Shown here: positions 7,895 to 14,523 of the stretch, piece after piece
Layout: each line of letters begins with the position of its first letter
Position numbering within the stretch: position 1 is the stretch's first letter
Source: Spirochaetae bacterium HGW-Spirochaetae-2
Lineage (GTDB): Bacteria > Spirochaetota > Spirochaetia > Sphaerochaetales > Sphaerochaetaceae
Assembly: GCA_002839355.1 (NCBI GenBank)
Contig: PGXW01000009.1
Coordinates: forward strand, 1 to 64,000
Reading direction: 5' to 3'
DNA length: 64,000 nt
Translations under genes and position numbers: made by a program
The notes under the pieces: generated by a model
Told to the model about the DNA's origin: nothing
The model's database searches: none
Seen by the model: the letters and a program-made list of their open reading frames with translations, nothing else

Positions 7895-7921
7895 AAAAAA
7901 AAGACCGGTGAATATCACCGG
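7895..7921 (-). terminator. Intrinsic terminator (attenuator) in the pyr leader
   Basis: On the minus strand a perfect 7-bp stem CCGGTGA-TAT-TCACCGG (positions 7921 down to 7905), with one further G-U pair possible, is followed within two bases by eight T residues (7902-7895). It lies between the leader-peptide stop codon and the pyrBI ribosome site, about 40 bases before the pyrBI ATG, so it must be bypassed for the operon to be expressed. The stem begins three bases after the leader stop codon, so a ribosome finishing the peptide would cover its 5' arm. Confidence 0.88.
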
Positions 7922-7924
7922 CTC

Positions 7925-7999
7925 TCAACACCTATCATTGAAAAAGAAGACACGAGGCCCAAGGTCTGTAGTCAATCTACTGGAAACCCTATGCTTCAT
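7925..7999 (-). CDS. Putative pyrL-like leader peptide, 24 codons
   Basis: A short frame begins at ATG 7999 behind GGAGGAG (8009-8003) and ends at TGA 7927-7925. It starts MKHRVSSRL and contains VFFFN near the end, coded by GTC TTC TTT TTC AAT, so the RNA has a U-rich run just before the terminator. E. coli pyrBI has the same layout: a leader peptide with a U-rich pause site next to a terminator, where low UTP stalls RNA polymerase, lets the ribosome catch up and stops hairpin formation. No homology to E. coli PyrL is claimed, only the same architecture. The frame is too short to prove by sequence alone. Confidence 0.7.
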   Translation of the reverse strand: MKHRVSSRLTTDLGPRVFFFNDRC

Positions 8000-8026
8000 G
8001 CACTCCTCCACATTTCATTTCCACTG

Positions 8027-8055
8027 AACATAGCAAATCGGGCGTATCATGTCTA
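8027..8055 (-). promoter_or_regulatory. Promoter of the pyr operon
   Basis: Minus strand: TAGACA (-35, 8055-8050), a 17-base spacer, and TATGTT (-10, 8032-8027) preceded by TGC, an extended -10. Predicted transcription start is near 8020, giving a leader of about 165 bases to pyrBI that holds the leader peptide and terminator. The -35 box overlaps the stop codon of the upstream kinase gene. Confidence 0.65.
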
Positions 8056-12510: not shown

Positions 12511-13734
12511 ATGAATCTTGATCGCCTGAATAACCATATCACCCAGATGGGAAGCATCGGAACAACTCCCGATGGTGGTGTGACTCGTCTGGCATTTACC
12601 GACGAAGATATGCAAGGAAGGAAACTTCTAACATCATATATGCATAATCTTGGACTAGAAGTATATGAAGATGGCATCGGCAATATCAGTGGAGTGTGGA
12701 GGGGATTGAACCCGACCCTACCGAGGTTGATTGTGGGCTCCCATATCGATACTGTACCGGAAGGGGGAAAATTCGATGGTGTGCTAGGTGTTTTAGGAGC
12801 TTTGGAATGTATCCAAACGATGCGAGAGCATGGGTTCATGCCGAATCGTTCAATAGAGGTGGTCTCTTTTTCCGCTGAAGAATCAAGTCGTTTCAATATA
12901 TCTACTATTGGTAGTAAGATGATTTCAAGACCGTTTGATTTACAGGTTCTGCATCAATATAAGGACAAGGATGATGTCTCGCTATATGAAATCCTTTTTA
13001 CCAAAGGATTCGACCCATCCAATCTGAAACAATGGGATCATCAGGAGATATTTGCTTTCTTGGAACTACATATCGAACAAGGCCCACGACTGGAATTATT
13101 ACAAGCCGATATCGGGATTGTAGATAAGATCGCTGCTCCGACAAGGCTGGTTGTTACTATCAAAGGAGAGGCGGCACACTCAGGTAGTTGTCCCATGGAA
13201 TATCGTAAAGACGCATTGGTTGCCGCTGCAATGGTCATTGAACAAGTTGAACAAGTAGGTATCGAAGAATCTGTTTATCAAACTGTCGCAACGATTGGAC
13301 GAATTGATATTGAACCAGGTTCTATGAATGTTGTACCGGAGAGGGCTAAGCTGTATCTGGACATTCGTGGTGTGGATATGCAGAGCATCGAGCGAGCATT
13401 ATCTGCAATCGTGTATAAGATTTCTAATATTACCACATCCAGAGGACTCACATTCACTGTGGAAACGATAAGTCACGAAACCCCGGTCCAGCTGGATTTT
13501 CGATTGGCAGGAATTATCGAAAATATTTGTCTAGATAGGGACTTTAAAGCTATAAGAATGTCCAGCGGAGCAGGCCATGATTCGATGAATCTGGCGAGAA
13601 TAGTTCCTACCGCATTGATCCTTATACCATGTGTTGGTGGGATCAGCCACAATAAACGGGAAAATGTCCTACCCAAGGATATCAATAATGGATTGAATAT
13701 TTTACATGAATGCATGCATCGGCTTTCATTTTGA
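12511..13734 (+). CDS. M20-family N-carbamoyl-amino-acid / allantoate-type amidohydrolase
   Basis: 407 residues, the usual length for the hydantoinase/carbamoylase branch of M20. Metal and substrate motifs are GSHIDTVPEGGKFDG (H78, D80, D89), FSAEESSRF (E123/E124), LELHIEQG (H187), SGAGHDSMN and GGISHNKRE. Members hydrolyse N-carbamoyl groups: N-carbamoyl-L-amino acids, 3-ureidopropionate or allantoate. Next to pyrK and pyrD the most sensible substrate is N-carbamoyl-L-aspartate or a related ureido acid; that is inference from context. It is the first gene of a three-gene operon with 21 bases to pyrK. AT-rich: 23 of 60 bases are G+C at 13261-13320, against 34 of 60 at 9001-9060. Confidence 0.85.
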   Translation: MNLDRLNNHITQMGSIGTTPDGGVTRLAFTDEDMQGRKLLTSYMHNLGLEVYEDGIGNISGVWRGLNPTLPRLIVGSHIDTVPEGGKFDGVLGVLGALECIQTMREHGFMPNRSIEVVSFSAEESSRFNISTIGSKMISRPFDLQVLHQYKDKDDVSLYEILFTKGFDPSNLKQWDHQEIFAFLELHIEQGPRLELLQADIGIVDKIAAPTRLVVTIKGEAAHSGSCPMEYRKDALVAAAMVIEQVEQVGIEESVYQTVATIGRIDIEPGSMNVVPERAKLYLDIRGVDMQSIERALSAIVYKISNITTSRGLTFTVETISHETPVQLDFRLAGIIENICLDRDFKAIRMSSGAGHDSMNLARIVPTALILIPCVGGISHNKRENVLPKDINNGLNILHECMHRLSF

Positions 13735-13755
13735 ATTCTTGAAGGAGAACTAGGT

Positions 13756-14523
13756 TTGAAATTATTTATCGCCAGTATTATCCAAAACCACGCTATTGCA
13801 CACGGTATATATGAAATGGTAATCCATGCTCCAGAAATTGCGCTTCATGCGGTACCAGGCCAATTCGTAAACTTGTATCCCCATCTGGAGTCCACGCTAC
13901 TACCAAGACCAATCAGTATTTCTGATGTGGACTACTCCGGGGGACATGTCCATCTGGCGTATGCCTTGGTTGGAACTGGTACGAAACTATTTGCCACACT
14001 ACGCGTTGCGGATACCGTTACAGTCCTTGGTCCATTGGGAAATGGTTACGCAATTCCCGATAGCATACAGAATCCACTATTGGTTGCTGGTGGAGTCGGA
14101 ACTCCACCGATGATATTCTTAGCACGATCCCTACGTATGCCTGTCATGATATATTTGGGATTCCGTTCTTCGACGCCATATTTCGTGGAACGGCTTGCGG
14201 AGTTTGGTGTTGTTCGAGTGGCAACTGAAGATGGTAGCGACGGGTATAAGGGAAATGTAGTAAATCTTATGGATAAGCATGGAGCGGAAGGTGATATTGT
14301 ATATTCGTGTGGTCCCAGACCAATGCTGAAAGCAGTTCAGGAATGGTCCAAATCAAAGCATATCCCAACACAATTGTCTCTTGAAGAGCGGATGGGATGT
14401 GGAATTGGATCCTGTGTTGGATGTATTGTCAAGATAAAAGAGAATAATTATCAAGGCTGGAATTATAAAAAAGTCTGCCACGACGGGCCTGTGTTTTTAG
14501 GCGAAAAGGTAATCTTTTCATGA
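13756..14523 (+). CDS. pyrK: Dihydroorotate dehydrogenase electron-transfer subunit
   Basis: 255 residues. FAD-binding RPISIS (51-56), NAD-binding GGVGTPPM (112-119), and a [2Fe-2S] site C215, C220, C223, C241 in GCGIGSCVGC and KKVCHDGPVF, all in the standard PyrK order. It carries electrons between NAD(H) and the FMN of PyrD. Start is TTG at 13756 with GGAG eight bases upstream. The stop overlaps the pyrD ATG by four bases (ATGA), as in Gram-positive pyrK-pyrD pairs. This is a second, unfused copy of a function already present in the pyr operon; its company suggests it works in the reducing (catabolic) direction. Confidence 0.92.
   Translation: MKLFIASIIQNHAIAHGIYEMVIHAPEIALHAVPGQFVNLYPHLESTLLPRPISISDVDYSGGHVHLAYALVGTGTKLFATLRVADTVTVLGPLGNGYAIPDSIQNPLLVAGGVGTPPMIFLARSLRMPVMIYLGFRSSTPYFVERLAEFGVVRVATEDGSDGYKGNVVNLMDKHGAEGDIVYSCGPRPMLKAVQEWSKSKHIPTQLSLEERMGCGIGSCVGCIVKIKENNYQGWNYKKVCHDGPVFLGEKVIFS

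Follow-up and report, generated by a model that had tools for sequence, protein, structure and literature searches.

The window, as we call the whole 64,000-nucleotide stretch of DNA analysed here, carries on its minus strand a gene for the catalytic and regulatory chains of aspartate carbamoyltransferase, pyrBI (7855-6263). The Pfam domains OTCace_N, OTCace, PyrI and PyrI_C all fall in this one open reading frame (ORF), which identifies it as a PyrB-PyrI fusion. Downstream of it on the same strand come a protein with a phosphoribosyltransferase domain where pyrE would be expected (6259-5543, assigned by domain and position), a pyrF-like protein of the OMP-decarboxylase family (5542-4649, Pfam) and a pyrD-like dihydroorotate dehydrogenase (4652-2892, Pfam), whose length we read as including a pyrK-like portion. 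Judging from the spacing, pyrBI and the genes down to 2892 are presumably co-transcribed as one operon. Another protein that carries a dihydroorotate-dehydrogenase-B iron-sulfur domain is encoded beside an M20 peptidase-family (amidohydrolase-like) gene at 12511-14523, in divergent orientation to the genes for pyrimidine and polysaccharide synthesis. The nearest named record to the window's PyrBI belongs to a Spirochaetae MAG (97% identity), Sphaerochaeta and Spirochaetales records were also matched, and the genome is a member of the Sphaerochaeta group.

The leader region is flanked by the gene for a wzc-like tyrosine kinase (stop 8053) and the start codon of the fused pyrBI (ATG 7855), again on the minus strand. 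All elements listed for 7895-8055 in an earlier note on this DNA were found on the minus strand: promoter, GGAGGAG, 24-codon frame, U-rich tract, stop, 7-bp stem with T8 and pyrBI ribosome site. The note's guess of a spirochaete as the source is likewise correct. In the direction of transcription, a motif scan places a -35 box TAGACA at 8055-8050 and, after a 17-bp spacer, an extended -10 element (TG 8035-8034, TATGTT 8032-8027), with a predicted RNA start at about 8020. The first three bases of this -35 box, TAG at 8055-8053, double as the stop codon of the kinase gene. The promoter is followed by a Shine-Dalgarno sequence (SD) GGAGGAG (8009-8003) and a pyrL-like leader ORF of 24 codons (MKHRVSSRLTTDLGPRVFFFNDRC; ATG 7999, stop ending 7925), within which lies the presumed pause tract, the U-rich UCUUCUUUUU (7950-7941, that is -29 to -20 relative to the stem of the terminator). 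The SD and this tract are also the 5' and 3' arms, respectively, of a predicted SD-tract hairpin. The stop codon sits 3 nt ahead of the stem of an intrinsic terminator (7921-7895) with a 7-bp stem CCGGTGA/TCACCGG (7921-7905), a G-T pair outside that stem and T8 (7902-7895). The pyrBI SD lies at 7869-7862. In the minimum-energy fold of 7904-7862 the U-run of the terminator pairs with the pyrBI ribosome site, and by this model the readthrough RNA might be translationally muted as well. Motif scans of the window alone performed no better than chance (one promoter found versus 0.5 expected, one terminator versus 0.7), so the case rests on comparison.

DNA upstream of pyrBI was taken from 139 genomes of the Sphaerochaetales (for which the order set and the family set are the same) and from other families of the class; after removal of near-duplicates, 79 family loci and 32 loci outside the family were retained. 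Simple scripts made the start-codon and terminator calls, a few of which are visibly wrong (e.g. L107, L111, L144). Of the non-redundant loci, 74/79 in the family and 16/32 outside have an intrinsic terminator no more than 110 nt from pyrBI, and 55/79 family loci have one when a stricter terminator score (at least 26) is applied; control DNA contained 32 terminators at this stricter score in 463 kb, both strands summed. The promoter is kept in relatives as TAGACA or TTGACA with 17-bp spacing. The earlier note had suggested a comparison of the upstream regions of relatives as a check; in these, many genera share the leader ORF, the U-rich tract, the position of the stop and the stem. The pattern it had named as speaking against its reading, a terminator kept with no clear ORF, is the exception, seen in a few relatives (L017, L111, L117). 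Leader and terminator are both gone at L048, L068 and most sampled loci of families f11, f26, f36, f41 and f43, and this absence from several families at the sampled loci points to loss or replacement. The architecture also extends to Treponema and several more families of the class; examples outside the order are MIYSLVTISCKFCISRLF (the Treponema-type family f24, which we read as 'Treponema' from 72% identity and genome type), MIKRRGKKPDDILRGTDFPLLFF (f22) and MEISERKKPDNVLNRGLCPLLLCFC (f26).

The reading frame of the leader was evaluated with starts picked by SD quality and distance alone, blind to frame. From these starts, 58 of 61 SD-led leaders were open to the stem in frame, compared with 24 and 20 in the other two frames and 21 in shuffles, and the first stop fell between -13 and +16 nt of the stem in 49 of 61, compared with 6 and 9 in the other frames and 10.6 in shuffles. 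A stop in this interval around the stem was found for 37/70 leaders and 3/32 same-family control terminators (p=2e-5), two of these three control cases being tRNA-like by eye. By these sequence comparisons the leader ORF is more than a chance frame. Many leaders end at the stem and some run through it rather than ending ahead of it. The amino-acid sequence is under weak constraint, with a pN/pS of 0.68 in the reading frame compared with 0.86 and 1.06 in the other two, and on the strength of this value strong constraint on the peptide was rejected. The peptides vary between genera, with motifs recurring in some clades (DLGPxVF in g1 and L019, KKPD in f22 and f26). What appears to be conserved is thus translation up to the stem together with a U-rich passage just ahead of it, the peptide itself being barely constrained, and retained translation up to the stem matches what a pyrBI-type attenuator requires. 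The leader ORF is presumably translated.

A subset of about 18 leaders, picked by eye, has no SD. Their ATG lies 7-11 nt past the -10 box, which predicts an RNA start at the AUG or a few bases off, and they look leaderless. In this by-eye subset, 18/18 ORFs were open to the stem, compared with 11 and 7 in the other frames.

The base composition of the leaders changes sharply ahead of the stem: at -28 to -11 the U fraction climbs from about 0.25 to 0.44-0.52 and G drops to 0.10. The leaders contain on average 8.3 U in these 18 positions, compared with 5.0 at the 32 control terminators (p=1.4e-7). The tract is weak in some leaders (L025, L145, L041).

Ahead of the terminator the leaders fold better than their shuffles, at a mean z of about -1; the extra stability comes from base pairing between the SD/start region and the U-rich tract, and this pairing is specific. 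Swapping the tract between leaders reduced the number of pairs from 12.5 to 8.5 (p=1e-8), GC-matched swaps (L107, L111 and L144 left out) from 13.0 to 8.9 (p=1e-9) and reversal of the tract from 13.0 to 9.2 (p=5e-6). The partner position of the SD pairing averages -21.7. An artefact of purine-rich and pyrimidine-rich halves was rejected as the source of the pairing, which persisted after block shuffles, swaps and reversal. In several clusters the consensus fold has altered bases in both arms of the stem (for example, the window has GGAGGAG/UCUUCUU where L004 has GGGGGGA/UUUUCCCC); such changes were counted by script in small alignments with some broken pairs, so that the swap test carries the weight for the SD-tract pairing. 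Pairing of this type was absent from the leaderless leaders (5.5 versus 5.6). Taken together, the pairing suggests that the pausing tract also conceals the ribosome site, and that a gate-free, leaderless version may operate in other spirochaetes.

We conclude that this region is probably a pyrBI/pyrL-type attenuator that couples transcription to the ribosome, and we infer the UTP signal, the pausing, the translation of the leader and the direction of the response from its sequence. The conserved ORF, U-rich tract, stop position and stem speak for the pyrimidine attenuator with a pyrL-like leader that the earlier note had proposed. Transcription would begin near 8020 and the ribosome would load at GGAGGAG. 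With plentiful UTP the polymerase would cross the U-rich tract fast with no ribosome close behind it, the terminator would fold and transcription would stop before pyrBI. With scarce UTP the polymerase would pause in the tract and the ribosome would catch up; standing at the stop codon 3 nt from the stem, it would cover the 5' arm and allow readthrough into pyrBI-pyrE-pyrF-pyrD. In E. coli, abundant UTP leads to fast transcription and termination, and scarce UTP to pausing and ribosome catch-up (PMC10135430). Terminators are repressed when a ribosome occupies a stop codon close by, and in amino-acid attenuators the leader stop lies more than 20 bp from the terminator (PMC4824070).

The SD-tract pairing would add a likely second gate to this attenuator, in that the tract, on emerging from the polymerase, would pair with the SD and the start codon of the leader, and a fast polymerase would in this way close the ribosome site too. 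SD and ATG lie at -85 to -75 from the stem; with the polymerase in the tract (about -25) they would be out and free and the pairing arm would still be inside the enzyme, and this exposure favours a kinetic gate. We therefore propose, tentatively, a dual role for the tract: slowing the polymerase at low UTP and, once transcribed, pairing with the leader SD/start and thereby gating ribosome entry and catch-up. On this proposal the UTP level would decide whether a ribosome loads before the SD is closed.

The strongest competing reading keeps the ribosome-coupled attenuator and replaces its signal by ribosome availability, growth rate or another nucleotide, with the tract serving mainly as an anti-SD arm. 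Tract-SD pairing could indeed explain part of the pyrimidine richness, and the identity of the signal is not readable from sequence. We nevertheless regard this reading as unlikely: the context is one of pyrimidine-synthesis genes throughout, the position of the tract equals that in E. coli, and several leaderless, SD-less leaders are very U-rich (L139, L141, L157: 12-13 of 18), although the leaderless mean is lower (7.7 of 18) and some are poor in U (L145: 1).

The hairpin could alternatively terminate transcription of the wzc-like gene, which lies upstream on the same strand and ends at 8053, 131 nt ahead of the stem. The promoter of pyrBI would then follow the hairpin, and the ORF before it would be a chance frame. 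A promoter conserved in relatives stands between wzc and the ORF, the T-run is only 39 nt from the pyrBI start codon, and frame and stop position are conserved far above chance, which together make this arrangement very improbable. There is a similarly slim chance of nascent-peptide arrest, in which the leader peptide would stall the ribosome on a pyrimidine signal: the clade motifs would fit, but the peptides differ between genera and their pN/pS is near 0.7.

As for other regulators, the genome of the window gave weak matches to PyrR (NF003549) far below the cut-off only, and PyrR scored above this cut-off in 5/139 family genomes. The carriers are five g11 genomes (G033, G034, G035, G060, G061; L125-L128), and the g11 pyrBI leaders L102, L116, L122 and L123 (4/4 read) keep the terminator together with a leaderless ORF, MTQRxRRDI. 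An Rfam search of the window and 18 relatives gave no match, the PyrR element included, in agreement with the earlier remark that no PyrR-type binding loop is recognisable here. The 5' arm of the terminator shows less pairing with the upstream leader (0.32) than dinucleotide shuffles do (0.47, p=1e-7), which indicates that there is no hidden antiterminator; on this low pairing and the empty Rfam search an antiterminator or riboswitch was rejected. Control of the terminator by PyrR or a riboswitch, for which the few true PyrR genes of the family could be invoked, is thus hardly tenable given that the window's own genome has none, Rfam finds no element and the 5' arm avoids leader pairing.

Arginine sensing was considered because the N-terminal halves of the peptides are Arg/Lys-rich. 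It was rejected, since the leader has no antiterminator and a ribosome that stalled early would not block the terminator, and it is further disfavoured by ARG-box-like repeats at carA of relatives instead. Such repeats (TGCATAAATATG) occur upstream of carA in 4/6 family genomes read (L198, L200, L201, L202). The readable carA upstream sequences contain no pyrBI-like attenuator. This division suggests that ArgR may control carbamoyl-phosphate supply while pyrBI is attenuated.

To our knowledge, the pyrBI-type race between ribosome and polymerase is known only from E. coli and its relatives, and we found no report of pyrBI attenuation in spirochaetes in the open-licence literature. The present leaders would place this type of attenuator in a second, distant phylum, in a whole order and several more families, and would imply tight transcription-translation coupling in spirochaetes. 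The earlier note remarked that the mechanism, if real, arose or spread outside the enterobacteria; the architecture recurs over the Sphaerochaetales and more families of the class, and its likeness to pyrL may reflect either common descent or convergence. Natural variants, of which there are dozens (SD-led, leaderless, stop-before-stem, read-through), offer a means to separate which features matter.

Compared with known systems, the leader shares with the PyrR-dependent pyr attenuators of Bacillus the attenuation of pyrimidine genes, but has a leader ORF and neither a PyrR gene nor a PyrR element. Like trp/his-type attenuators it combines a leader peptide with an intrinsic terminator ahead of a biosynthetic operon, whereas it lacks an antiterminator and a run of a single control codon, and its stop adjoins the terminator. 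The closest likeness is to E. coli pyrBI/PyrL, with which it shares the gene controlled, the order promoter-SD-short ORF-U-rich tract-terminator and the independence of a trans-acting protein. The distance from ATG to stem is 89 nt in E. coli and 78 nt here, and the E. coli U-rich TTTTTCTTCCC lies about -29 to -19 from the stem, compared with -29 to -20 here. The two differ in that pyrL runs on through the terminator and stops a little short of pyrB, whereas the leader of the window stops 3 nt ahead of the stem; E. coli also has pyrB and pyrI as two genes, and many spirochaete relatives look leaderless. Homology of the peptides was considered: the window peptide gave a pairwise E of 0.002 to PyrL, the best of 69 leaders, and 15% of shuffled sets did equally well or better, so that the resemblance is not significant over all 69; the mechanism does not need homology. 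The SD of E. coli pyrL, CGGGAGGA, is complementary to UCUUCCCG within the U-rich pause tract of the same leader. The two can form 13.6 pairs, or 8.4 if the tract is reversed, and 4/58 swapped tracts equal it in this one case, which makes the E. coli pairing suggestive. The SD-sequestering role suggested for the U-rich tract may hold for E. coli also, and the gate may be a general component of pyrBI attenuation that has so far been overlooked.
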